NCBI GenBank assembly: GCA_027038295.1
Contig: JALVXD010000135.1
Coordinates: 1 to 41,786, forward strand
DNA: 41,786 nucleotides
Reading direction: 5' to 3'
From: Campylobacteraceae bacterium
GTDB taxonomy: Bacteria > Campylobacterota > Campylobacteria > Campylobacterales > Sulfurovaceae
How positions within the stretch are numbered: position 1 is the stretch's first letter; each line of letters begins with the position of its first letter. A program made the position numbers and the translations under genes. Positions 4,261 to 41,134 of this stretch are shown piece by piece. Under the pieces are notes generated by a model. That model was not told where the DNA came from. It worked only from the letters and a program-made list of their open reading frames with translations, and did no database searches.

Positions 4261-6065
4261 AACTTTACATCATCTATAAAAGAGCTATCTCTCTTAATAA
4301 GTGTTGCTGGAACCCTAGACCTATCTAAAAAAACTTGATCCTTAAAAAAAAGTATCTGTTTGCCATATATTGGTGCTTGACCTGCAATAAAAATCAACAT
4401 ATCACCCCCTTCTAATACCTCTCCATTACTTGCTTTTTTTGCACTCTTTAATCGCATACACTCATCAACAGTTAAGAGTGGTCGAGAAATCTCTTGTAGA
4501 CTCTCTGTTACTTGCCCCAACATAACAGAAATTCTATCTCCTGATGTAGTAGTATAACTTTTAACAACAGTAGTAGTTCCTGTCATCTTAGAGAGAAGTT
4601 CTGCTGTCTCAACCTTATTGGGTGCATAAGCAATACGTACTTGACAATTTGACATAATAGACTCATCTTTACCATATGCTTCATAGAGTTGAGAAATATC
4701 TTGAACAATAATATATGCCTTTATTCCATAACCTGCCATAAATGCTAAACTCTCTTGAAATATAGATAGTTTGCCAAGACTAGTAAACTCATCAAGCATT
4801 AAGAGCATTCTATGCTTATACGTTTGAACACTTTTACCATCTTTAAACTCTAAATCTTCCAATAAACGTCTAAGTAACTGATTCATTATAAGTCTAATAA
4901 GAGGCATAATCCTACTTTTATCAGTTGGATTAAGTACCAAATAAAGGCTCATTGGTTTATTAGCATTCATTAAATCATTAATTTTAAATTCACTCTTAGA
5001 AGTATTATTAGAGATAACAGGGTCAATATATAAATTTAAAGAAGATGATGCTGAACCTACAACTCCAGATAACTCTTCTGGAGCTTTATTAAGCATCTCT
5101 CTTCCTACAAGGGAGATAAGTTTATGATTACTAGTAACCATCTCATTTAATAAATCTTGTATATCAACTTGATTCAATACTTCATATACATCAGTAAGAT
5201 TTGGATAACGTCTATTCTCCTTTTTTGATTTATAAATTGCATAAATTATTAAACCACTAATAAAAGAAAAGCTCGACTTCTCCCAATAGTCTCTTAATCC
5301 TTTTCCCTCTGTATCAACAATCATCATAGCAATATTTTGAACATCACCAATCTCATAATCTGTATCTATACGAATCTCTTCTAAAGGGTTAAACTTAGCA
5401 CTCATACCATTCGATGCAGTAGGGTCAAACTTTAAAACTCGGTTATTAGCATACTGTTCTCTCCAACCTGATGTTAACGCCCAATTTTCACCTTTTATAT
5501 CAAGAACAATAACTGATTCTCTCCAATCTAACAGGGTAGGAAGAACTAGCCCTATACCTTTACCTGAACGCGTTGGTGCAAAAGCTAATATATGTTCAGG
5601 ACCATTATGTTTAAGGTATTCTAACTTTGAATCATCTTCAAAACCTCCAATATAAACACCCTCTTTTTGTCTATATAATCCAGTTTTTTTTATATCAGAA
5701 GTATTCATCCAATGAGCTGTTCCATGCACATCATCATGAGTTTTACTTCTTCTAAGTGCAAGAAGTCGAATTAAGATAAATACTATAAAAACAGCAACAA
5801 AGACAAAAAGCATTGTAATATTTAATGTTCTAAAAAAGATACTATATTGAGTAAAGTAATCAAACTGCCAAAGAATCCAATCAAAGGGATTATAGAATGA
5901 TTGAAAAAGTGATTCTCCTAAATTTTCATGATAATCAAAATGCTGTGCTACATACTGAGTAGCAAGAATATTGACCATGAGAAATAATGAAATCACTACA
6001 ATGAAACTAATAATATAATTTCCTACTTGATTACTGCTTCTAGCTCCATAACTTTGATGATTCAA
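4257..6065 (-). CDS. traG: Type IV secretion coupling protein, VirD4/TraG family
   Basis: 602 residues. Two membrane helices lie at roughly residues 16-38 and 78-105, followed by a cytoplasmic ATPase. Walker A is APTRSGKG near residue 165 and Walker B is MLLMLDEFTSLG near 425, with the conserved LVLPTLLDW and VLDIKGENW stretches between. Such proteins carry the relaxase-DNA complex to the secretion channel. It sits downstream of the relaxase gene on the same strand and overlaps the TraB-like gene. No VirB/Trb channel genes are in the window, so the channel must lie outside it or be supplied by another element. Confidence 0.93.
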   Translation of the reverse strand: MNHQSYGARSSNQVGNYIISFIVVISLFLMVNILATQYVAQHFDYHENLGESLFQSFYNPFDWILWQFDYFTQYSIFFRTLNITMLFVFVAVFIVFILIRLLALRRSKTHDDVHGTAHWMNTSDIKKTGLYRQKEGVYIGGFEDDSKLEYLKHNGPEHILAFAPTRSGKGIGLVLPTLLDWRESVIVLDIKGENWALTSGWREQYANNRVLKFDPTASNGMSAKFNPLEEIRIDTDYEIGDVQNIAMMIVDTEGKGLRDYWEKSSFSFISGLIIYAIYKSKKENRRYPNLTDVYEVLNQVDIQDLLNEMVTSNHKLISLVGREMLNKAPEELSGVVGSASSSLNLYIDPVISNNTSKSEFKINDLMNANKPMSLYLVLNPTDKSRIMPLIRLIMNQLLRRLLEDLEFKDGKSVQTYKHRMLLMLDEFTSLGKLSIFQESLAFMAGYGIKAYIIVQDISQLYEAYGKDESIMSNCQVRIAYAPNKVETAELLSKMTGTTTVVKSYTTTSGDRISVMLGQVTESLQEISRPLLTVDECMRLKSAKKASNGEVLEGGDMLIFIAGQAPIYGKQILFFKDQVFLDRSRVPATLIKRDSSFIDDVKL

Positions 6066-27918: not shown

Positions 27919-30900
27919 TTTCTAAACCACCTACACGGCAGTAAACAAACTTTGCTTTATCAATCAACTTGGCTCTCTTTTCTAAACCACCTACACGGCA
28001 GTAAACCTATAAAGTTCGCTCTGATGCAGTTCGCATTGTTTCTAAACCACCTACACGGCAGTAAACGTACTAAAGAGAATTACAGTAACTATGCTGGTTT
28101 TCTAAACCACCTACACGGCAGTAAACGCTGTCAAAAGCTGTTTTTGGGTAACTTTTTTTTTCTAAACCACCTACACGGCAGTAAACAGCTCCACGACCAT
28201 AAATAATCTGATTTTTATTTTCTAAACCACCTACACGGCAGTAAACGTTCCGTACACTAACAAAGGTATAGGCATGTTTTTCTAAACCACCTACACGGCA
28301 GTAAACTAGAGAAGATGATGAAGCTTGAAGATGAACTGGTTTCTAAACCACCTACACGGCAGTAAACTAGACAAAGAAAAACCACGCCTCAAACATCTAT
28401 TTCTAAACCACCTACACGGCAGTAAACTAGGGGGTCTTAAAAATGTTTTTATAGCTTTGTTTCTAAACCACCTACACGGCAGTAAACGAAATTTTAAAAG
28501 CATTGCTTATATCTGCATTTTTCTAAACCACCTACACGGCAGTAAACCAAGTCCTTTGAGCGTTTCTTCCGTAAAATCATTTTCTAAACCACCTACACGG
28601 CAGTAAACGAGAACAAGTACTTGCTCATCTTTGCGAATCGTTTCTAAACCACCTACACGGCAGTAAACGCTACTACATGCACATAGACCCACGCTCTATA
28701 TTTCTAAACCACCTACACGGCAGTAAACCTTGATAGTTCGCCTTGTAGAAGTTTGTGGATTTTCTAAACCACCTACACGGCAGTAAACTTGAAATTAGTT
28801 CAGTAAAGCCATTAATTAATTTTCTAAACCACCTACACGGCAGTAAACATTATGATATTAAGCTCATAAAAGAGTCTCTTTTTCTAAACCACCTACACGG
28901 CAGTAAACGGAATGGGAAGAGTTTACGCCCTTTTGCTGGTTTTCTAAACCACCTACACGGCAGTAAACTTATCTTAGAGACAATTTTATCACCCAAAATA
29001 TTTCTAAACCACCTACACGGCAGTAAACAAGTTGATGCAGTAATTACCGATGTTCCGTTTTTTCTAAACCACCTACACGGCAGTAAACGGGTGCTTGTTG
29101 ATGTGCGTACTCCTGTATTTTTTCTAAACCACCTACACGGCAGTAAACGACTTTTTTGCTATGCCCCTGAGTCATTTGTGTTTCTAAACCACCTACACGG
29201 CAGTAAACAGAGTCATAGCCTGTATTTATCTCATCATTTGTTTCTAAACCACCTACACGGCAGTAAACAGAAGATGAGCTTGTAGGTATGTACTTTGCTT
29301 TTTCTAAACCACCTACACGGCAGTAAACACCCTTTAATCGTTTTTTCTTTTTGTCTAAAATTTCTAAACCACCTACACGGCAGTAAACGTGGGATGATAA
29401 CCCGTCCAAACTTGGCAGGTTTTCTAAACCACCTACACGGCAGTAAACCCACTTCACTACTGCTGGACTCTGCAACTTTATTTCTAAACCACCTACACGG
29501 CAGTAAACATGGAAAAGCACACTCTATGGGGCATCGTTCGTTTCTAAACCACCTACACGGCAGTAAACGACTGCTCTGCTCTGAAAGCACAACTCCAAGA
29601 TTTCTAAACCACCTACACGGCAGTAAACACATACCCAAAGAGGCTGTAGTGTTGCTATGATTTCTAAACCACCTACACGGCAGTAAACGACACTCGTAGA
29701 CGTTGGTTAGGGGTTGATATTTTCTAAACCACCTACACGGCAGTAAACACTTTATGAAATCAGTAGAATTTAACGCTGATTTTCTAAACCACCTACACGG
29801 CAGTAAACCACTCGCAGGTGCTACACGATGGACAGAAGATTTTCTAAACCACCTACACGGCAGTAAACGTTTATACGGCTCTACATCAACAGCAGGTGCA
29901 TTTCTAAACCACCTACACGGCAGTAAACATGACTTTAAGGCTCTCCAAGCAGAGTATAAATTTCTAAACCACCTACACGGCAGTAAACTTATGTCGCTGT
30001 TTGATACCATTGCCCTACATTTTCTAAACCACCTACACGGCAGTAAACTAGTACGTATACCAGAAGCTTTTAACCTTACTTTTCTAAACCACCTACACGG
30101 CAGTAAACTAGAAACACCCTCATGAGCCAAACCAGTAACATTTCTAAACCACCTACACGGCAGTAAACACCTTATCTCCAAACATATCTCGTCTTGTAGA
30201 TTTCTAAACCACCTACACGGCAGTAAACTAGAGTGGTCACCTTGTAAGTTGTACTCAACTTTTCTAAACCACCTACACGGCAGTAAACAACCTAGTGATA
30301 GCTTTGGAAAAGATGAACAATTTCTAAACCACCTACACGGCAGTAAACTATAAAAGCTGAAGAGAAACGTACCACCGTTGTTTCTAAACCACCTACACGG
30401 CAGTAAACAGTAGGAGAAATAACATTTGCCAACTCTAAAATTTCTAAACCACCTACACGGCAGTAAACGATAAAAGAGGTAAAGTAGTTGAGGTCTTAAA
30501 TTTCTAAACCACCTACACGGCAGTAAACACAAAAGGTATGGATTTATTCGCTACTGCTAATTTCTAAACCACCTACACGGCAGTAAACATAGTACTAATG
30601 AATGTACAAATATTGTGAATTTTCTAAACCACCTACACGGCAGTAAACGAAAATTTAATGATATACTCTTTTTCAGAGTATTTCTAAACCACCTACACGG
30701 CAGTAAACTTTTATAGCCTTAGCTGGAATTTTGGCACTTTTTTCTAAACCACCTACACGGCAGTAAACATAACTTGACTTATGCTCTTGTTTGTTGCGTT
30801 TTTCTAAACCACCTACACGGCAGTAAACACACCCAAAACACTTCCAAAACTGCTGTATTTTTTCTAAACCACCTACACGGCAGTAAACGGTGTACCCTTT

Positions 30901-32689
30901 TCTATCATCACGGCTGCAAATTTCTAAACCACCTACACGGCAGTAAACCCCTAAGACATGCCCAATACGTTTGTTTTAACTTTCTAAACCACCTACACGG
31001 CAGTAAACGTTTATGTACTCTTTGCATTACCAATATTACGTTTCTAAACCACCTACACGGCAGTAAACTTTTTAAATATTTAATTTTAGTATTGACATTT
31101 TTTCTAAACCACCTACACGGCAGTAAACGTAATAAGGAAAACTATAGTAACTACGCTGGTTTTCTAAACCACCTACACGGCAGTAAACGAGTGTTAGCAA
31201 TGTAAGAGTATTTGGCTGTATTTCTAAACCACCTACACGGCAGTAAACAAAAAGGTTACAAGCTAATAGGTGCATTCGATTTTCTAAACCACCTACACGG
31301 CAGTAAACCCTTTGCAAAGTGGGGAACCCAGCAACGCTTATTTCTAAACCACCTACACGGCAGTAAACAAAATCTCCGTTACTTGTTTGCTTTTTAAACA
31401 TTTCTAAACCACCTACACGGCAGTAAACAACGCTCCATTTTGCATGGTTAAAATACGTTTTTTCTAAACCACCTACACGGCAGTAAACAAGAGGGCAGGG
31501 CTTCACAAAGGTTTTTTATGTTTCTAAACCACCTACACGGCAGTAAACAATGGTAAAACAAGTCTCGGAGAGGGGTGTTTTTTCTAAACCACCTACACGG
31601 CAGTAAACACATTAAAAAGTATCGTGAAACGTCATAATGATTTCTAAACCACCTACACGGCAGTAAACCGACTCATGCACACGCATAGCTGCAACCTCTG
31701 TTTCTAAACCACCTACACGGCAGTAAACGCTATCATGCTCTTTGCAATAGTTACATCTTTTTTCTAAACCACCTACACGGCAGTAAACCTTCATCAGGCG
31801 AAACGGTTGAAATGATTACATTTCTAAACCACCTACACGGCAGTAAACATATGTTTCTATTGCATTTACTCCTTTTTGAAATTTCTAAACCACCTACACG
31901 GCAGTAAACTTGTAAACTTTACAGCTACTAAAATGATAGAGTTTCTAAACCACCTACACGGCAGTAAACTTAAACAGATTTGAAAATGGTTACAGTATGG
32001 ATTTCTAAACCACCTACACGGCAGTAAACGAGGGTAGGGCAGTAGATGGCAACGTCCAGATTTTCTAAACCACCTACACGGCAGTAAACACATGGGGCAG
32101 AGCCTTTTAGTTCCAGTATTATTTCTAAACCACCTACACGGCAGTAAACCTCCAAGAAAAATAGCAAACGTTAATTTTGACTTTCTAAACCACCTACACG
32201 GCAGTAAACTTGAGCCGTTATGGGATTAGAAAGGGGGTTTTTTTCTAAACCACCTACACGGCAGTAAACATACTTGTTCTTCCCTACAATCTCTAACAGT
32301 ATTTCTAAACCACCTACACGGCAGTAAACATAAGTGAAAGCACTTTCCCTTTTTTTTCAATTTTCTAAACCACCTACACGGCAGTAAACCAATACTTGAA
32401 TTAGATGGAGATGATGACATGTTTCTAAACCACCTACACGGCAGTAAACGTGGTGGGAATGACCCAAAAAATGAAGCTGATTTTCTAAACCACCTACACG
32501 GCAGTAAACGGGAAAGTGATTTTATAGATAACTATGGTGGTTTTCTAAACCACCTACACGGCAGTAAACAACACTAACATATAACGAGGAGACGAACAAA
32601 TTTTCTAAACCACCTACACGGCAGTAAACTTTGGGTGCGTTTCATCCTTAAAAAGTTCAAGTTTCTAAACCACCTACACGGCAGTAAAC
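27919..32689 (-). CRISPR. Type I-F CRISPR array, 80 repeats and 79 spacers
   Basis: 80 copies of a 28-bp repeat, all identical by eye. Read on the - strand it starts GTTTACTGCC, has the Cas6f hairpin CTGCC-GTGTA-GGTGG and ends TTTAGAAA (the 8-nt 5' handle), the type I-F pattern. Spacers are 32 nt, except three of 33 nt (28307-28339, 28548-28580, 31849-31881). Leader and newest spacers are at the right, next to cas6f; the oldest end is at 27919, about 100 bp from the IS. No decayed terminal repeat is visible. Two spacers are sister sequences. Confidence 0.99.
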
Positions 32690-32828: not shown

Positions 32829-33431
32829 TTAAAAAGAGGGTACTGTACTCTCGTGACTTAACCCATAAGTAGAAAACAACCCATCTTTTGGATTGTCTCT
32901 CTCTATTTTTTCTATAAAAATTTTCAACTCTTGATTGCTTGATAGACTTTGCATATTAATATATGGTAACTTATTCTCTTTTTTTACTTTCTCATACTTC
33001 TCTTCTGTCTCTACAAACTTTTTTAGAGCCTCCTCATACTCAATCCCCTCTCTTTTTGCATACCGTTTTGCCAGTCTTCTTATCTCTGAATTTGACTTAA
33101 ATCGTTTTCTGCTAAATGAAACAAAACCATCTACATTAGCAGGAACTTTTTGTATCTCTGAAACAGTTATGTAGTCCATTAGTCGATTTAACCAATGAGC
33201 TAGATTTAACTGCTCTAGCTCCTCTTTGGTTTTGGCAAAGAGTCGTAGTTTGTTTCCAAGAGGAAATTTGCTCTCTTGGTAGTTTGGGAAAGAGAGACCA
33301 ACAGAGACTAGATTTTTTTCATCTCTAACCTCTACTAAGGCTAGGTGAATTTGAGAGTAAAGCTTTTTCCACACAAAACCAAGTGTTATCTCTGTATCTT
33401 TTAAGAGTTCTATCTCTATGTAGTAGTTCAT
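32829..33431 (-). CDS. cas6f: Cas6f (Csy4) crRNA-processing endoribonuclease
   Basis: 200 residues. It begins MNYYIEIELL like other Csy4 proteins. The catalytic His lies in SQIHLALVE near residue 30, and the Ser region in INMQSLSSNQE near 160. It ends STYGLSHESTVPSF, matching the usual YGLS-x-G-x-V-P-x-F tail. It cleaves the repeat below the CTGCC/GGTGG stem to leave an 8-nt 5' handle and stays on the 3' hairpin. Last gene of the cas operon, 6 nt after csy3 and about 140 bp before the array. Confidence 0.96.
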   Translation of the reverse strand: MNYYIEIELLKDTEITLGFVWKKLYSQIHLALVEVRDEKNLVSVGLSFPNYQESKFPLGNKLRLFAKTKEELEQLNLAHWLNRLMDYITVSEIQKVPANVDGFVSFSRKRFKSNSEIRRLAKRYAKREGIEYEEALKKFVETEEKYEKVKKENKLPYINMQSLSSNQELKIFIEKIERDNPKDGLFSTYGLSHESTVPSF

Positions 33432-33437
33432 GGTTAC

Positions 33438-34460
33438 CTACTTGTCACTTTGACCAAAAACACCACCACGCACAAGCACAGCCATAACATAGTGTTCATC
33501 TTCTACTCTGTCAAGCTTTTGACCTTGGGCAAATTTATCAAAGTGGGTGTAAAAATCTTGTTTCTCTTTTGGGGTTCTGAAAGCTTTACCCATATTGGTT
33601 ACAGCACCATAAGGCTCTATGGCTATAGCTCCATTTCCACTCTCTGTGCCAAATTCAGGATACCACGTATCTATACTTCTTAAAGCATTTCCTAATTTTT
33701 GAGAGTGCATTGAAGCCACGTTATCTACATGATATAAGATTTTACTCTTTTTCCCTGCCCCTTTGTCTAAAACCAACTCTTCACTAGGGTAAACCTCTTG
33801 GGCTTTTCCTATTTTGGCATAGGTTGTAACCTCTAACATTAAAAACTCATCATCACTAGAGAGTGCTTTAGCTATATTTGCTCCCAAATCAATAACCTCT
33901 TTATTATCACTACTCATAGAGCGAATATCAAAACTTTTAGCATCAAAATTCCAAGTTTTATTACCTATCAAATCTTTTACTTCAATCTCAATAAACTCTG
34001 TTCCTACTCTGTTTCTCCATAAAAATCGTCCATTGGCTAAGTTAATAGCATAACGCAATCCAAGTTCTCTAAAAGCCTCTTTTTCAATGTACCCTGCTAC
34101 AGCCTCTTGATAACTCTTTAAAAAACTACTGTTATTACAAGCCGATGGCTCTTTGATACCTCCTAAAACTTTAAGTGTAAATTTTAACACCAAAGTATCT
34201 TGCTCTGACTCTAAAGCACAAGAGTCTACCGTTTGTAAATTTGCTTTTTCAACTTCTGCATTTAGTTTAGCAGGGTCATTTTTAATCGCAGGTTTTAGAC
34301 GGTTGGCGATTGTCCCTCTAACTGATTTTTCTACCAATTTCAGAGGTGTTTTATTCTCTCTATTTTCCCAAGTTGTACCATACATCATTCCATCAGATGG
34401 AACTAATTTTTTCTCAAATGCTAAAACCGAAGCCACTTTACTATTTTTATCTTTTGCCAT
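33438..34460 (-). CDS. csy3: Csy3 (Cas7f) backbone subunit of the type I-F Cascade
   Basis: 340 residues, normal length. The start KVASVLAFEKKLVPSDGMMY is the typical Csy3 opening. Further family-like stretches are NLANGRFLWRNRVGTEFIEI near residue 142 and YPEFGTESGNGAIAIEPYGA near 270, then a Lys-rich FYTHFDKFAQGQKLD region. Six copies coat the 32-nt spacer part of the crRNA. Between csy2 (gap 12 nt) and cas6f (gap 6 nt) in one operon. Confidence 0.96.
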   Translation of the reverse strand: MAKDKNSKVASVLAFEKKLVPSDGMMYGTTWENRENKTPLKLVEKSVRGTIANRLKPAIKNDPAKLNAEVEKANLQTVDSCALESEQDTLVLKFTLKVLGGIKEPSACNNSSFLKSYQEAVAGYIEKEAFRELGLRYAINLANGRFLWRNRVGTEFIEIEVKDLIGNKTWNFDAKSFDIRSMSSDNKEVIDLGANIAKALSSDDEFLMLEVTTYAKIGKAQEVYPSEELVLDKGAGKKSKILYHVDNVASMHSQKLGNALRSIDTWYPEFGTESGNGAIAIEPYGAVTNMGKAFRTPKEKQDFYTHFDKFAQGQKLDRVEDEHYVMAVLVRGGVFGQSDK

Positions 34461-34472
34461 GTTATTTTCCTT

Positions 34473-35360
34473 TTAGTTATTTTTATTTTGTTCACACAGA
34501 TACAATCCATGCTCTTTATCTACGCTATAGTGCCATAAAATCTCATCTAACGACTCAATCTTATAGAGCATCTTAAACTCACCCAATGTCACAACCGACT
34601 CTGCAAAACGGTGAGGTTTGTTTGCATCGCGTTGATTTTTGGCTTTTCCCAACTCTGAAATGGCTTGAAAACCTGTAGCTATTGGTACTATCCACCCTGC
34701 TGTTTTTCGTTTGCTACTCCAAAGAACTTTGCCCTCTTCATCTTTTTGGGAAGAGTTAGTAATAGTGACATATTCAAGTAGGGCATCCATAGCATCTAAA
34801 CCACGGCTCATCGCCTCTAGCATTAAATCTCTTCGCTCTACAATCGCATAGCTTGGCATTAGTTTTCCTCTAATACGCCGAATATCCTCTTCATTATCAT
34901 CCTCTACTCTCTCAATGGTAGGCTTTTTAAATCCAAAAATATCACCACTAGCCATTTTCATACGAGATTGTAAATGGTGTGAAACTCGCTCTTTAAATCT
35001 CTCTTCATCTCGTTTATGCAGACCTGAAAACTCAATAATCAACGAAACATCAAGATGAATTCTCGCCTCCTCTATAAACGCAGGTCGTTTTCCATCTTTG
35101 TCTACAGGGTTACTTGTACCAATAATTGAATTGACATAATCTCCAACTCCTTTATGCACTTGCAAATCAGCCTTGTGACTTAACACGGCTGTTGCATTAA
35201 ACTTTAACTCTTCAAAACCATCACTATTGAGCTTTCGTTGCAGTGCATGAATCGCCCCTAACCATGCCGACATAGCAGGAAATCCAATGGTAAAAGGACT
35301 AGAGAGAGCATTTGCATTGTGTACCAAAATATGAGGTATTATTAAAACAGTTTTTATCAT
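34473..35360 (-). CDS. csy2: Csy2 (Cas5f) subunit of the type I-F Cascade
   Basis: 295 residues. IIPHILVHNANALSSPFTIG near residue 7 and FPAMSAWLGAIHALQRKLN near 28 are the typical N-terminal Csy2 segments. Csy2 binds the 5' handle of the crRNA and, with Csy1, recognises the PAM-proximal DNA. It overlaps csy1 by 4 nt, so the two are made together. Confidence 0.94.
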   Translation of the reverse strand: MIKTVLIIPHILVHNANALSSPFTIGFPAMSAWLGAIHALQRKLNSDGFEELKFNATAVLSHKADLQVHKGVGDYVNSIIGTSNPVDKDGKRPAFIEEARIHLDVSLIIEFSGLHKRDEERFKERVSHHLQSRMKMASGDIFGFKKPTIERVEDDNEEDIRRIRGKLMPSYAIVERRDLMLEAMSRGLDAMDALLEYVTITNSSQKDEEGKVLWSSKRKTAGWIVPIATGFQAISELGKAKNQRDANKPHRFAESVVTLGEFKMLYKIESLDEILWHYSVDKEHGLYLCEQNKNN

Positions 35361-36640
35361 CGTAACGCCTCCTTATATTTTTCAAGAAGAGTTAATAAGT
35401 GTAGATACTCCCCTTTTCCAAACTTGATATACTCTTTTTTCCCTACAACCTTTTTATAACCAACATCAATAACCCATCGGGCTATCTCTTTAAGCAATTT
35501 TTCTAACCACTCATCACTCTCTTTTCGCTCTTTTTGGTAGGCTTCACTCTCGATTAGCCATACCTTTTGATTAGATTTAAGTTTTGAATTTTTTTCATAA
35601 TATTGACTCGTTGATACTTCTCGAACGGCATACATTCGCTCTATAATTCTATCTATTATCTCGCCATAACGATAATCTCTACCCTCACGAATATTGATAT
35701 TGTTGTAGTCCGTTTTATAAATGTTATCTAAGGCAAAAAAAGTATTTTTGAACTCCCAAATGGTTATGGAGTTTTTAAAAAAGTCCTCTTTTGGAAAGCG
35801 AATATCTCTACTCTCTAAAATTGGTGGCATAGAGTTTAATAATTGTGCTTTTCCTCCATTTCGATTGTTCAATACTGAAATATTTTGAGGTTTAGTCCCT
35901 CCATAACCAATAGTAGTCAATCCAAAAATCTCTCTATAGTTATCTTCTGAATATTCATCATTTCGCTTCTTATTCCGTAAAGTTTTTAAAAGCTCTTTCT
36001 CCTCTTCATCCTCTCCAAATCGTATTTTGTTGAATCGTTTTCTTAACTCAAATACCATACCAGAGTTGGTTAAAATAGAGAGTTGATGATAGTTGTCATC
36101 TACAGGAAAATAGACCTGCTTTATCTTAGAACTTGTAACCAATTCGGTTGAGCTTGTAACCATTGCTAAAAACTCATCTCGTAATTCATTATAATCTTTA
36201 GTTTTAATGGTTAAAAGTGAAGTAGCTAGTGAAGTCTCTTTTTCTATATGCTCTATAAGCTGTTTTCCATCAGGCATAATTAGGGTTAAAAATTTATGTA
36301 CATCTAACGCGGCCGCATTTCCAAGTGCATCGCTTTGAACCTCTACATTACCTGTTCGTAAAAAGCCATCTCTTCTATGCTCTACATTAGCAATAATCGA
36401 AGTGACATCACCATTTTTATTTTTTCTCGAACTCGGATGAGAAAAAGTACAAGGGTGTGTTGAGATAGAGATTTGCTTTGCTCTCTTAGAAGCATTGGGT
36501 AACCAAACTTCACGAGAGAACTCAATGGCACTCTTTTCATGTAACTCTAAAACCTCACTCTCTTCCATTGAAGATTTAAGATTTTTCTTAATCCAAGCCT
36601 CTTTTCGTTCATCGAAAAACTTGGATATTGTTTCATTCAT
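35357..36640 (-). CDS. csy1: Csy1 (Cas8f) large subunit of the type I-F Cascade
   Basis: 427 residues, expected size. NASKRAKQISISTHPCTFSH near residue 51 matches the typical Csy1 opening, with GYGGTKPQNISVLNNRNGG near 252 as the other conserved block. It contacts the CC PAM (as GG on the target strand) and the start of the R-loop. Preceded by AAAGGAGA as ribosome site. It is first in the csy operon, which has its own 259-bp upstream region carrying the degenerate mini-array. Confidence 0.95.
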   Translation of the reverse strand: MNETISKFFDERKEAWIKKNLKSSMEESEVLELHEKSAIEFSREVWLPNASKRAKQISISTHPCTFSHPSSRKNKNGDVTSIIANVEHRRDGFLRTGNVEVQSDALGNAAALDVHKFLTLIMPDGKQLIEHIEKETSLATSLLTIKTKDYNELRDEFLAMVTSSTELVTSSKIKQVYFPVDDNYHQLSILTNSGMVFELRKRFNKIRFGEDEEEKELLKTLRNKKRNDEYSEDNYREIFGLTTIGYGGTKPQNISVLNNRNGGKAQLLNSMPPILESRDIRFPKEDFFKNSITIWEFKNTFFALDNIYKTDYNNINIREGRDYRYGEIIDRIIERMYAVREVSTSQYYEKNSKLKSNQKVWLIESEAYQKERKESDEWLEKLLKEIARWVIDVGYKKVVGKKEYIKFGKGEYLHLLTLLEKYKEALR

Positions 36641-36753
36641 AATCGGTCTCCTTTAACTGTTTTGTTTAGTAAAAAATCACACTTTAAATTAAATGGATAC
36701 TTGTTCAGCATTTGACAGAAAGAAGTTTAGCACTTTTAAACTTAATTTTAAAT

Positions 36754-36772
36754 ATAAGTCATAATAGTATGG
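36754..36772 (-). promoter_or_regulatory. Predicted target of the mini-array guide, with CC PAM, upstream of csy1
   Basis: On the - strand CC (36772-36771) is followed by ATACTATTATGACTTAT (36770-36754). These 17 nt are identical to the first 17 nt of the pseudo-spacer, and CC directly 5' of the protospacer is the type I-F PAM. The site ends 114 nt before the csy1 start codon, in the only non-coding DNA ahead of the operon, and TATTAT within it could be part of a -10. A bound Csy complex would block initiation or early elongation. Confidence 0.7.
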
Positions 36773-36783
36773 ATAAAAATAAA

Positions 36784-36867
36784 AAATAAAACCACCTATA
36801 CGGCAGTAAAAAATCATAAATGATAAGTCATAATAGTATTTTCTAAACTGCTTACTCAGCAGAATAA
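36784..36867 (-). CRISPR. Mini-array of two degenerate type I-F repeats around a 28-nt pseudo-spacer
   Basis: First repeat on the - strand 36867-36840: 20 of 28 match the array repeat; hairpin changed to CTGCT-GAGTA-AGCAG (a fully paired stem), handle TTTAGAAA intact. Pseudo-spacer 36839-36812, 28 nt. Second repeat 36811-36784: 21 of 28 match, hairpin CTGCC-GTATA-GGTGG intact, the following handle decayed to TTTTATTT. The conserved parts are just those needed for one mature crRNA. A possible -10 (TATGAT or TATTAT) lies 36868-36890. Confidence 0.85.
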
Positions 36868-36899
36868 TATCTATATTTTGAATCATATCTAATTTTATA

Positions 36900-39800
36900 T
36901 TAAAGCTTTACCAAACCAAATTGGTCACTATACTCATATTTACTACCCTCATAATAACCAAAACTCAACTCTCCATACTTGATAGATACAGCCCTTTTAG
37001 ATTTATCGAACTCCTCTATCAATGCATTATAATCTCTTTGTAGCCATAAGCCCTCTTTTAAACTCTCATCAATCTCTATTTTCTCTATCTGTAGTATCTC
37101 CTCTCTTTTTATAATATTATCGTAGCCCTCTATCTCACAAAAAGAGTAGGCTTTCTCATTCTCATCATAAACTAAAAACACCTTTTGTGTGGGTTCACTC
37201 TCTCTAAAAGGGTGTAGATATTGAGGGTGAGCTGTCAAAAACCAATGTTCATTTAAATAGCCCTCTAAACCTGTAGCTCCCTTTTTATCATAAGAGGTTA
37301 AAGCTTTATGCGTTTGATAATGCTCCAAATCACTTAGAGATGATTTATAGTTTAATTTTTTAGGTTTTATGACTCTAGCTGTTGCGTCTAGTCGTTCATT
37401 TAATGCTTTGGTATCTACCAATTCCTCTATATTGTGAGTGTTTAAAGTAATACCTACTTCATAACCAGGGTATTTAAAATAAGCCTCTCCCTCTTCATCA
37501 TTGGCTTTAAAAGCTTTGTAGTTGTACTGCATAAGAGCAATATTTTGGTGGGTTATGGCTAAATTTCGATGTCGCAAAACACGCCCTGCTAGTTGAATAA
37601 TAGAACGATAAGAAGATGGCTCAATAACAGCCCAATCAAAATCATGGTCTCGCCCAACTTCTTCTACAGGTGTTGCCACCACTACAAAAAGTATATCTTT
37701 AGCTTTAGAAGCATCTAAATAAGAACGAATAATTTTATCTTCAAACGCTATTGGTTCTTCATCCTCTTGCTCTTTACGTTTTAAAATCTTCTCTAGGTAA
37801 CGCTCTTGGGCTTGTCGTAAAAGCAGTACTTGGTTAGAGTGATACGCCATAACCCTAATCTCTACATTTTCACTTTTTATTTGGGCTAAAAACTTTGCCA
37901 ATGCTACACATGGACGAATATTTGCCACACGAACCACACCAAATGAGACATGAATACCACTCTTTTTATCTACAGTAAAGTGCTGTTTATGTTTTTCTAT
38001 CATGGCACTCTTTATTTTAAAAAAATAACTCTCCTCTTTTGTCTCATCATCTTCAAAATCACACTCTTGCATTAACTCTTGACAAGCAACAATCTCTACT
38101 TTTCGTTTAACAGGCTCTTTTGCTAAATTTACAATACGTTTTTGCACAAATTTACGATGTGACTCTCCATAACCCTTTATAGCCTCTTGGCTATCAAAAC
38201 TTTTAATCAAAGAGACATCTGTTTTAAACTCATCTATCCAAGCACAAACTATCTCATTTTTAGCCTCTCGTGTTTTGCAAAAGAGTTGCCAACCTTTTTT
38301 GTAAGCATTAAAATACCCCTCTGCCAAATCAGGAGGAATGGTCGCCGAAGAAATCATTACTTTTCGTCCCAACATACCTGCAAGATGAATCAAACGCCCA
38401 ATAGCAATCAAATCAGACCCTGTAAAGTCATCAATCTCATCAATAACCAAATCAGAACTCATAAGACGCAAAGAGGGTAAGATATATTTCCCACCTCTTT
38501 TTGTCTCAGTTGCACCCATAAGATGGTCAATGGTACAGACCAAAACAGGAGCATAGAGAAAAGCTTTATCTTTTGCTTTTTTAAGCACCGTAGCTAACCC
38601 CTCTTCGGGAATGCTAGAGTCAAAATCTATCCACTCATCAAGCAGAGACTCACTTGACTCTGAACCATAATTATCTACGCTATCATCATCTTGCTCTTTG
38701 GCTCTGTTATGAAGCTCTAAAACAGCTTTAGAACCAATCAAAACAGCCAACTCACTATCATCTAACCCGATACGCTCTCGGTACTCGTCACCTGTTTGTA
38801 GCGTAAGAGTTCTAAGCCCCAAAGCCAAAATATATCGAAGTGTGTTCTCCTCATTAGCTACAGACTGCATCACTTTTGCATTGGCAAAGGTCTTTCCACA
38901 ACCTGTACTTGCCATATTGACAGCAAAGAAGCCTTGTTTTATGCTTTTGTCTTCCATAAAGGGTTTGATTTTAGCTACTGCCTTATCTTGCCAAGAAAAA
39001 GCTTTTGGGCTTCTCTTTTTCAATACTCGATTATCTTCAACCAAGGGTGGCTCTTTTTCAAAAGCAGGTAAAAGATGTACTGTTTTTAAAGCACTCTTCA
39101 TAACACCACAAAGATGTTCATCTAATTTCTGTTTCATCTTTTTATCGTTATCGGTATTGGCAAAAAGGTTTGTGGTATCTTTCCAACTCAAATTGGCATC
39201 CTGTGAGGAGTAGTAGTGGTCGCCCAACATCAAAGTTAACCTTGCATGGTGTAAAACCATTCTATAGCTTCCATCAGCCATAGACTCCTCTAATAAATCA
39301 AGAGAGCCAAGCAGACGATTTGACCACTTTTTAAGCTCTTTTGTCCATTTATCAGAATGACTTAACAAGCCCTTTGGAAAAATAAAACATTTTTTTAAAT
39401 GCTTCTGATACTCATCTTCTTCATATCTATTTTCATATCCCCAAGATTGTGTAATGTACTCAAAAACATCATCCATAGAGTTGGCTTCTACACCATTCCA
39501 CCCACTTCTAAGCTCTTTTTTTACTGTTGATTCACTCGGTAACCGATGGTGCGAAACAATAAGCCACATAACAAGCTTTGCCGAATTTGGAAGATTTTCT
39601 AAAACTTTTTTATCTACATTTTGAATACTCTCTTTTAAAGCCTCCTCATCTATCTCTCCCAACGCAAAAGCCTTTAACCATCCCTCTTCATCAGCTCCAT
39701 TTTGGGCAATAAAAGCATTGAGCAACATACATGAAATCCACTCATGACGAATAGGGTCGCCTTTTTTGGTTGAAGATTTCAGTTTTTCTTGAAAAAGTTG

Positions 39801-40187
39801 GGTTGATTTACCCCAGTCATGAAGCAGAGCAGAGAGAGCAACCAAAGATTTAATAAGAGGTAGATACTTCCAATCACTCTCTTTGTATTTGTCTAAAATA
39901 GTTTTTTGTGTACGATTTACTGGCACAACCCCTTCACTATTAAACCTATCTCGATTACCCACTATCCACATAAGCTCAACCCTTCTACTACTACGTATCC
40001 AATGACAACTTACAGCCGTACTTTTAGAAGCAGTTTGTCTAAGCAGTTTTTTAACAGCCTTTAACCCCTCTTGAGTAATAATAGTCTGCCAAGTGTTATC
40101 ACCTATTCTATTAGCAAAAGAGTCTAAGACTCTTCTTGTTTTTTTTAGAGCATTTTTTTCACATTGAGAGATAAATGTTACTATCAT
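36900..40187 (-). CDS. cas3: Cas2-3 fusion: adaptation subunit plus HD nuclease-helicase (type I-F)
   Basis: 1095 residues. The N-terminal ~95 are the Cas2-like domain (MIVTFISQCEKNALKKTRRV), fused as in all I-F systems. HD nuclease: LSALLHDWGKS near residue 115 and IRHEWIS near 146. Helicase: Walker A MASTGCGKTFANAK near 424, DEID box LVIDEIDDFTG near 575, motif III SSATIPPDLA near 606 and motif VI QLAGRVLRHR near 870. All catalytic motifs look intact. It degrades DNA bound by the Csy complex and joins Cas1 in spacer integration. It overlaps cas1 by 4 nt. Confidence 0.97.
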   Translation of the reverse strand: MIVTFISQCEKNALKKTRRVLDSFANRIGDNTWQTIITQEGLKAVKKLLRQTASKSTAVSCHWIRSSRRVELMWIVGNRDRFNSEGVVPVNRTQKTILDKYKESDWKYLPLIKSLVALSALLHDWGKSTQLFQEKLKSSTKKGDPIRHEWISCMLLNAFIAQNGADEEGWLKAFALGEIDEEALKESIQNVDKKVLENLPNSAKLVMWLIVSHHRLPSESTVKKELRSGWNGVEANSMDDVFEYITQSWGYENRYEEDEYQKHLKKCFIFPKGLLSHSDKWTKELKKWSNRLLGSLDLLEESMADGSYRMVLHHARLTLMLGDHYYSSQDANLSWKDTTNLFANTDNDKKMKQKLDEHLCGVMKSALKTVHLLPAFEKEPPLVEDNRVLKKRSPKAFSWQDKAVAKIKPFMEDKSIKQGFFAVNMASTGCGKTFANAKVMQSVANEENTLRYILALGLRTLTLQTGDEYRERIGLDDSELAVLIGSKAVLELHNRAKEQDDDSVDNYGSESSESLLDEWIDFDSSIPEEGLATVLKKAKDKAFLYAPVLVCTIDHLMGATETKRGGKYILPSLRLMSSDLVIDEIDDFTGSDLIAIGRLIHLAGMLGRKVMISSATIPPDLAEGYFNAYKKGWQLFCKTREAKNEIVCAWIDEFKTDVSLIKSFDSQEAIKGYGESHRKFVQKRIVNLAKEPVKRKVEIVACQELMQECDFEDDETKEESYFFKIKSAMIEKHKQHFTVDKKSGIHVSFGVVRVANIRPCVALAKFLAQIKSENVEIRVMAYHSNQVLLLRQAQERYLEKILKRKEQEDEEPIAFEDKIIRSYLDASKAKDILFVVVATPVEEVGRDHDFDWAVIEPSSYRSIIQLAGRVLRHRNLAITHQNIALMQYNYKAFKANDEEGEAYFKYPGYEVGITLNTHNIEELVDTKALNERLDATARVIKPKKLNYKSSLSDLEHYQTHKALTSYDKKGATGLEGYLNEHWFLTAHPQYLHPFRESEPTQKVFLVYDENEKAYSFCEIEGYDNIIKREEILQIEKIEIDESLKEGLWLQRDYNALIEEFDKSKRAVSIKYGELSFGYYEGSKYEYSDQFGLVKL

Positions 40188-41134
40188 ACCTTAGACTCTT
40201 TGTAGTACAAAGAAGCCTTTTTCACTTCAGCAAACATAAAATCCAAAGCCTTATGCTCTACAAACTTTTGTAACACTTGATTTCTAAACTCCTGCTCACT
40301 CATTCCCTCTTTTGCACAGACAAAAGCCCAAGGTAAGACAATTGCATCTTTAATCAAATCTGCCACATCAAAAACTAAAGCTCCACGCCTTGTTTTTCCG
40401 TGCATTACAGCAAAACCATGAGGAATACCAAGTACCCAAAGTGTTGTAGCTCCTAAGCCATAGGCAAGATAGTTACCGTGATTCAAAAAAATATTGGCTT
40501 CATCTGCGTTGTTATTGTCTCTTGTAAAGCCTATAAGGTTGGTCTTTTGAGCTGAATATTTGTAAAGTCTTTTGGTTAAGTCTGCTTCGAGTTGTAGAAG
40601 TTTTCCAACATTATAAGCATTGGGTATCTGCTCTAACGTCTTATTTAGCATTTGAGACAACTCTTCATCAAGTCCAAAACCTTCTGCCTTTAGCTCTTTA
40701 TCTTTTGACCAAATTTTAGCAAGAAACTCTACTCTTGCCATTTGAAATCGTTTTGCTGTTTCCAATCGTTTAGCATCATCAAACCAAAACTGCATCCACC
40801 CTTGGATATATTCAGTTGGTCTATATTCACTTTGAGGTGTCATCCACTCTATCTCTGTTCCCATAAAAAGAGGTGTAGCTCCACCACCACAAAAACCTAC
40901 CAATACTCCTGCACTTGCTAACATTCTCATTGAAGCTTGGGTAATAGAAGTTCCTGTTCCAAGGAGTAAACAGGTAGTATTGGCTATAGGAATATTAAAA
41001 TATTGGTACTCCTTTTTCGCTTCTGTTAAGTAGAGGACTCTACCATCTTTTTGCATAACACGGCACTTTTCTAAATAATAAATATTAGCTCGTTTAGAAT
41101 GCAGTATCGCTTTTAAATCTGTAAGTTGTTCCAT
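40184..41134 (-). CDS. cas1: Cas1 integrase (type I-F)
   Basis: 316 residues, normal length. N-terminal beta domain with TTCLLLGTGTSITQASMRML and GVLVGFCGGGATPLF near 54-86. Catalytic residues: Glu in LLQLEADLTKRLYKYSA near 185, His in IPHGFAVMHGKTRRGALVFD near 245 and the following Asp/Glu in VFDVADLIKD. It inserts new spacers with Cas2-3. First gene of the cas1-cas2-3 transcript, with a promoter at 41242-41269. Confidence 0.96.
   Translation of the reverse strand: MEQLTDLKAILHSKRANIYYLEKCRVMQKDGRVLYLTEAKKEYQYFNIPIANTTCLLLGTGTSITQASMRMLASAGVLVGFCGGGATPLFMGTEIEWMTPQSEYRPTEYIQGWMQFWFDDAKRLETAKRFQMARVEFLAKIWSKDKELKAEGFGLDEELSQMLNKTLEQIPNAYNVGKLLQLEADLTKRLYKYSAQKTNLIGFTRDNNNADEANIFLNHGNYLAYGLGATTLWVLGIPHGFAVMHGKTRRGALVFDVADLIKDAIVLPWAFVCAKEGMSEQEFRNQVLQKFVEHKALDFMFAEVKKASLYYKESKV

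Follow-up and report, generated by a model that had tools for sequence, protein, structure and literature searches.

A degenerate mini-array between cas2-3 and csy1 very probably supplies an autoregulatory guide in a type I-F1 CRISPR-Cas locus of a Sulfurovum-like bacterium

We describe a degenerate mini-array, lying between cas2-3 and csy1 in the type I-F1 CRISPR-Cas locus of a Sulfurovum-like bacterium, that very probably provides an autoregulatory guide of the CreR type, with which a non-cutting Csy complex would repress csy1-cas6f. As relatives keep the match between guide and target even though its sequence has changed, this element is, on comparative grounds, very probably a self-made brake on the bacterium's own CRISPR system. 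Ten Campylobacterota loci show, by evolution alone, that type I-F self-regulation guides are under selection while their sequence drifts, and the mismatches fall on bases that the effector cannot read.

Results

Organization of the type I-F1 locus

The window, by which we mean the whole analyzed stretch of 41,786 nucleotides, carries a complete type I-F1 CRISPR-Cas locus on its minus strand, with cas1, cas2-3, a gap of 259 nt, csy1, csy2, csy3, cas6f and the cognate array all present in that order:

40184..41134, minus strand: cas1 (Pfam Cas_Cas1, 5.9e-13)
36900..40187, minus strand: cas2-3 (Cas3f; TIGR02562, 9.5e-289; Cas3_I-F_Cas2 domain)
35357..36640, minus strand: csy1 (cas8f; PF09611, 2.1e-108), first gene of the presumed regulated operon
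34473..35360, minus strand: csy2 (cas5f; PF09614, 3.1e-103)
33438..34460, minus strand: csy3 (cas7f; PF09615, 9e-145)
32829..33431, minus strand: cas6f (csy4; PF09618, 4.6e-55; TIGR02563, 1.7e-41), the enzyme expected to process the guide
27919..32689, minus strand: main CRISPR array of 80 repeats and 79 spacers (76 of 32 nt, 3 of 33 nt)

The array, already counted at 80 repeats in a first-pass annotation made from the sequence, indeed has that number, and its repeat is GTTTACTGCCGTGTAGGTGGTTTAGAAA with a stem of CTGCC/GGTGG. A search of the whole genome returned no near-identical repeats outside it, and Rfam gave no match within the window. Spacer uptake in type I-F systems can be primed by partial matches; regarding self-priming, 0 of the 79 array spacers matched the rest of the window above 70%.

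A mini-array guide and its CC-flanked target

Read towards csy1, the cas2-3/csy1 gap contains psiR1, a 28-nt guide, psiR2, a CC dinucleotide and another copy of the first 17 guide nucleotides, ATACTATTATGACTTAT, which lies at 36770-36754 on the minus strand, 69 nt downstream of the guide from start to start. The first-pass annotation had reported two degenerate repeats flanking a 28-nt pseudo-spacer between cas2-3 and csy1, an exact 17-nt recurrence after CC at that distance, and AA instead of CC before the pseudo-spacer, and its coordinates and description proved correct on all of these points. The elements of the gap, some of them placed with the help of related loci described below, are as follows:

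36882..36887, minus strand: candidate -10 (TATGAT) of the mini-array promoter, suggested by analogy with the TATAAT just 5' of psiR1 in L012, L013 and L015
36840..36867, minus strand: psiR1, a degenerate repeat with 8 mismatches to the array repeat that folds as the repeat hairpin
36812..36839, minus strand: 28-nt guide (pseudo-spacer), starting exactly after the handle
36784..36811, minus strand: psiR2, a degenerate repeat with 7 mismatches to the array repeat that keeps the fold (stem CTGCC/GGTGG) and has lost the handle
36771..36772, minus strand: CC PAM of the target; CC stands 5' of the target in 10/10 loci, by design of the scan
36754..36770, minus strand: target, an exact 17-nt match to guide positions 1-17, unique in the genome
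36724..36729, minus strand: candidate csy1 -10 (TAAACT, after TGC), of weak consensus and aligned by eye with TGCTATCAT in L009 and L017

The stem of psiR1 reads CTGCT/AGCAG (36862-36848) where that of the array reads CTGCC/GGTGG, so the changes are compensated and the repeat fold is kept, and compensatory changes in this 5-bp stem are also seen across loci. The 3' end of psiR1 is an intact 8-nt 5' handle, TTTAGAAA, at 36847-36840. The T-rich tail of psiR2 makes an intrinsic-terminator-like site (terminator scan; 0.0 expected in shuffles), and because 36784-36811 is the only such site in the region, transcription of the mini-array may also terminate at the second repeat. With AA preceding it, the guide's own site is left without a PAM. 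Beyond position 17, guide and target mismatch at positions 18, 19, 22 and 24 and match at 20, 21 and 23, so that the earlier statement that the match is lost after 17 nt is nearly correct. The element thereby departs from a canonical type I-F spacer, having a 28-nt guide, degenerate repeats and a 17-nt match in place of a 32-nt spacer, intact repeats and a full-length match. Like a CreR, it has two degenerate repeats that flank one guide adjoining the cas operon, and this guide partially matches a PAM-flanked site (CC plus 17 nt) upstream of csy1, whose promoter in the window is a predicted one.

A match of this quality is not expected by chance: a 17-mer with up to 2 mismatches should occur 0.06 times in the window, and when control 17-mers were scored against the intergenic CC sites, 0 of 3000 reached 17/17. 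Even if positions 6 and 12 are ignored, the genome holds no further CC-flanked match with fewer than 2 mismatches, and the sole other genomic target of the guide is a weak site on C62 with 2 mismatches. The 17-mer is also present in 16 viral contigs, in none of which the crRNA handle precedes it, and no Csy1 relatives were found in viral contigs. We took the viral matches as chance; three related contigs do have the CC, with no mini-array in the short flanking context.

Guides and targets change together across ten loci

Relatives of csy1 were collected from genomes, and each cas2-3/csy1 gap was subjected to an unbiased scan that considered any pair of 18-mers, one of them after CC, and made no use of the repeats. 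The resulting ten Campylobacterota loci are the window, L003, L005, L009, L012, L013, L015, L017, L020 and L021, some of which are related and many of which come from metagenome assemblies. In all ten, the top-scoring pair starts exactly after an 8-nt handle, which reads [CT]TTAGAAA, CTTATAAA or CTTAGAAG. The target lies at csy1 in eight loci, and in the other two at the promoter of a PBECR3-like gene that the gap also contains; the eight csy1-linked loci are alike in anatomy and different in their guides, at Csy1 identities down to about 46%. When every guide was compared with every target, a guide matched its own target at 14-17 of 17 positions and those of the other loci at a mean of 6.7. 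The first-pass annotation had named both a search of related type I-F loci for CC-flanked matches and the conservation of the guide-target match despite sequence drift as tests of its idea, and both came out in its favor.

How the pairs diverge is informative. In L012 and L021, the most alike, guide and target have changed together at positions 4 and 14, and the only uncompensated difference within the first 18 falls on position 12. Over all ten loci, mismatches are found at position 6 in 3/10, at position 12 in 5/10 and at position 18 in 8/10, compared to 6/150 cells for the other positions of 1-17 (Fisher p=1.7e-5; permutation p=3e-5), and on leaving out one or two loci, p stayed at or below 0.012 in the subsets tried. 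Class 1 effectors flip out every sixth base and do not read it, which renders mismatches there harmless (PMC12774636). The co-change of guide and target, together with the phasing at 6, 12 and 18, hence indicates selection on pairing within the effector (Cascade) and not a chance duplication, and a guide-target match kept by selection among relatives is a further trait shared with CreR. A start right after the handle, a CC and mismatches at 6, 12 and 18 also make a simple finder for such guides.

Guide length is 27-29 nt in three loci, namely the window, L009 and L017, and 18-22 nt in the remaining seven (measured as stem start minus 5), and pairing ends near position 18 in both groups alike. 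As a control, the scan of Acinetobacter LoGeW2-3, one of the strains of the published CreTA work, recovered a guide anchored to the handle and mismatched at 6, 12 and 14. The cas3f-csy1 gap of a plasmid of Acinetobacter sp. ANC 7970 (L059) holds a handle-anchored guide with a CC-flanked partial match and mismatches at 6, 14 and 18, probably a further CreTA-type guide. A Methylobacter locus (L037) with an opposite-strand guide and an 11-nt CC-flanked match near csy1, spotted by eye, was not ranked by the 18-mer scan and was not counted. In several I-F loci on plasmids, no gap precedes csy1. The element is dispensable, given that it is absent from L004 and L006, where csy1 is 80-83% identical and the cas2-3/csy1 gap measures only 24-25 nt. 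In the Csy1 tree, the nearest element-bearing relative of the window is L003, and L009 pairs with L020; these pairings, along with the short gaps of L004 and L006, imply that the state of this slot changes often.

Promoter placement and the proposed mode of action

Promoters were placed by eye in the related loci, and that of csy1 in the window by analogy, such that all positions are predicted ones. A good sigma-70 promoter is predicted to end just before the CC in L005, L012 (TTGACA-17-TAATAT) and L021, with the target at the start site, while in L013 and L015 the target contains the predicted -35. For the window, L009 and L017, the prediction is a weaker -10 with a TGC extension, downstream of the target, which is placed at the -35 or just 5' of it; by consensus, the csy1 promoter of the window is weak.

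In the mechanism that we favor, the mini-array would be transcribed towards csy1 and cut by Cas6f at its two degenerate repeat hairpins, yielding a product of handle UUUAGAAA, 28-nt guide and 3' hairpin that would load into the Csy complex. This complex would bind the CC-flanked site just upstream of csy1 through ~17 bp of pairing, in which bases 6, 12 and 18 do not count, and would form an R-loop too short to recruit Cas2-3, leaving the DNA uncut. In Aggregatibacter, the type I-F1 Cas2/3 is triggered by R-loops of at least wild-type length and by no shorter ones, and truncation abolishes cleavage (PMC7296934), so that binding without cutting is to be expected here. Long-guide and short-guide loci appear to limit the R-loop in two ways, both of which fit the rule in type I-F1 that Cas2-3 is activated only once the R-loop has reached full length. 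Bound Csy could block the csy1 promoter as well as read-through from cas2-3, and the effector level would thus feed back, by repression and by its presumed release through crRNAs or anti-CRISPR proteins, on csy1-csy2-csy3-cas6f. One point against such a brake is psiR2, which lacks the handle and could act as a terminator. The first-pass annotation had proposed in essence this mechanism (a crRNA-like guide, a CC PAM, limited pairing, no cutting and repression of csy1-cas6f), and it gains strong comparative support from the ten loci, the co-change and the mismatches at every sixth base.

Bound Csy might instead serve another purpose at this site, namely as a road-block to cas1-cas2-3 read-through, in the balance between adaptation and interference genes, or in activation, rather than by occluding the csy1 promoter. 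The position of the target upstream of the predicted promoter, not on it, in the window, L009 and L017 speaks for such a role, which we consider unlikely in view of L005, L012, L013, L015 and L021, where overlap of the target with the -35 or the start site is what occlusion would predict.

Toxin-like genes in the same gap

The target of L003, like that of L020, is found upstream of the mini-array, at its own promoter; next comes a gene encoding 135-137 aa, before csy1. These genes resemble PBECR3 (PF18812), a barnase/RelE-like nuclease family, at 6.7e-7 and 5e-5, values below the curated cut-off. With PBECR3-like genes under the guide, both loci look like CRISPR-guarded toxins, and csy1 is therefore not the sole use of this position: one genomic slot serves now as a brake on csy1 and now to control a putative RNase toxin, an alternation that is possibly new.

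Such loci invite the idea that the window, too, carries a CreTA-like addiction module, in which the guide silences a small toxin between target and csy1 and loss of Csy becomes harmful. L003, the closest element-bearing relative by Csy1, and L020 target the promoter of the RNase-like gene in this very gap, and the same gap of Acinetobacter holds a CreTA with a 33-bp mini-ORF (PMC10097628). In the window, however, no gene lies in the gap at 36641-36753, downstream of the target where CreTA has its toxin, which excludes an RNA toxin less fully than a protein. The only ORF seen there by eye, 24 codons from 36711, overlaps the csy1 start, lacks a ribosome site and is unseen in relatives, and in eight loci it is csy1 itself that stands downstream of the target. 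We thus judge an addiction module in the window very unlikely compared to the csy1 brake.

It is hardly credible that the element is a relic or arose by chance, as old repeats plus a short duplication that now do nothing. The repeats are degenerate, the region is AT-rich and close relatives lack the element, but decay would yield neither repeat stems that stay paired via compensatory changes nor guides that diverge and yet each fit their target, with a mismatch phase of 6, 12 and 18.

Apart from the two PBECR3-like genes under a mini-array guide in the cas2-3/csy1 gap, two more occur at other places in the window's own genome, with no mini-array (G000:C83:2758-3147 and C95:1279-1668). Putative RNase genes of this kind are found at L003:7426-7839 (plus strand) and L025:1452-1859 (minus strand), and in G326 the PBECR3-like gene comes after a cas1 gene. 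A conserved stretch of ~100 nt (AGCAGACCAAAAACTGCT ... ACGTCCnAAACGAACTCCGATGGTTTTA) lies 3' of the PBECR3 genes, from about 7838 in L003 and likewise in L077-L093; its first hairpin covaries, Rfam gave no match to it in L003 and L025, and it is possibly a partner RNA or the end of a mobile cassette. In L036, a Methylomonas koyamae plasmid, the cas3f-csy1 gap (5114-5876) encodes a GNAT-family and DUF1778 protein pair that is toxin-antitoxin-like, suggesting that toxin cargo may settle in this gap repeatedly.

A third repeat-like hairpin in the predicted csy1 leader

From the psiR1 and psiR2 sequences of the other loci we made a profile, and searching with it between target and csy1 revealed a third repeat-like element, R3:

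36697..36711, minus strand: R3, repeat-like hairpin ATGCT-GAACA-AGTAT in the predicted csy1 leader, its stem covarying across 8 loci

None of 1000 shuffles scored as well as this hairpin. R3 was found in all eight csy1-linked loci, with shuffle p of 0.023 or less in seven and of 0.078 in L005, the weakest, and its stem shows paired changes at pair 1 (A-T or C-G), pair 4 (T-A or C-G) and pair 5 (T-A or C-G). It appears to lie shortly downstream of the predicted csy1 start site, and a nearly identical hairpin serves L003 as its working psiR1. R3 may act as a Cas6f site in the csy1 leader, or it may be what is left of an earlier mini-array. Taken by itself, its stem has little stability in the window (-2.7 kcal/mol) and ends in an A-U bottom pair, which makes cutting by Cas6f uncertain. 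A double brake, in which Cas6f binds or cuts R3 in the csy1 message and free Cas6f also tunes its own operon post-transcriptionally, is a tentative idea that we hold to be somewhat unlikely. The presence of R3, with its covarying stem, in the csy1 leader is possibly new.

Comparison with known systems

Mini-arrays aimed at cas8 promoters were reportedly predicted by Shmakov et al. 2023 (NAR 51:8150), with one of type I-F1 said to have been tested, and the element here resembles those type I-F1 regulatory mini-arrays in its partial match to a cas8 promoter.

CreR guides, cas-regulating RNAs, are reported for types I-B, I-E and V-A (cited in PMC13131331 and PMC12737573). They share with the present element a degenerate mini-CRISPR beside the cas genes and a limited, PAM-flanked guide match at a cas promoter region. 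What sets the element apart from them is its type I-F effector, its occurrence in Campylobacterota and R3, the additional repeat-like hairpin of the csy1 leader. The solitary phage repeats of RacrIF1 likewise involve a repeat-like hairpin that is processed by Cas6f outside an array, but RacrIF1 is a phage inhibitor without a guide, whereas the window has a host element with guide and target (PMC10651486).

In the CreTA of Acinetobacter, a type I-F guide in the cas3-csy1 gap has a CC-flanked partial match and represses transcription of a toxin RNA via the Csy complex (PMC10097628). Its CreA agrees with our guide in the cas3-csy1 gap, effector type, CC PAM, 17 paired bases and two degenerate repeats, while its guide is 20 nt long instead of 28 nt and represses a divergent toxin RNA, in contrast to a site before csy1 with no toxin found (PMC10097628). 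Because this guide in the same gap was already published, the first-pass annotation was wrong to know of no type I-F case (PMC10097628), and with that its claim to a first one fails, the novelty being the part of its proposal that does not stand. A self-regulating guide of this kind has already been described, and the element in the window is a further example.
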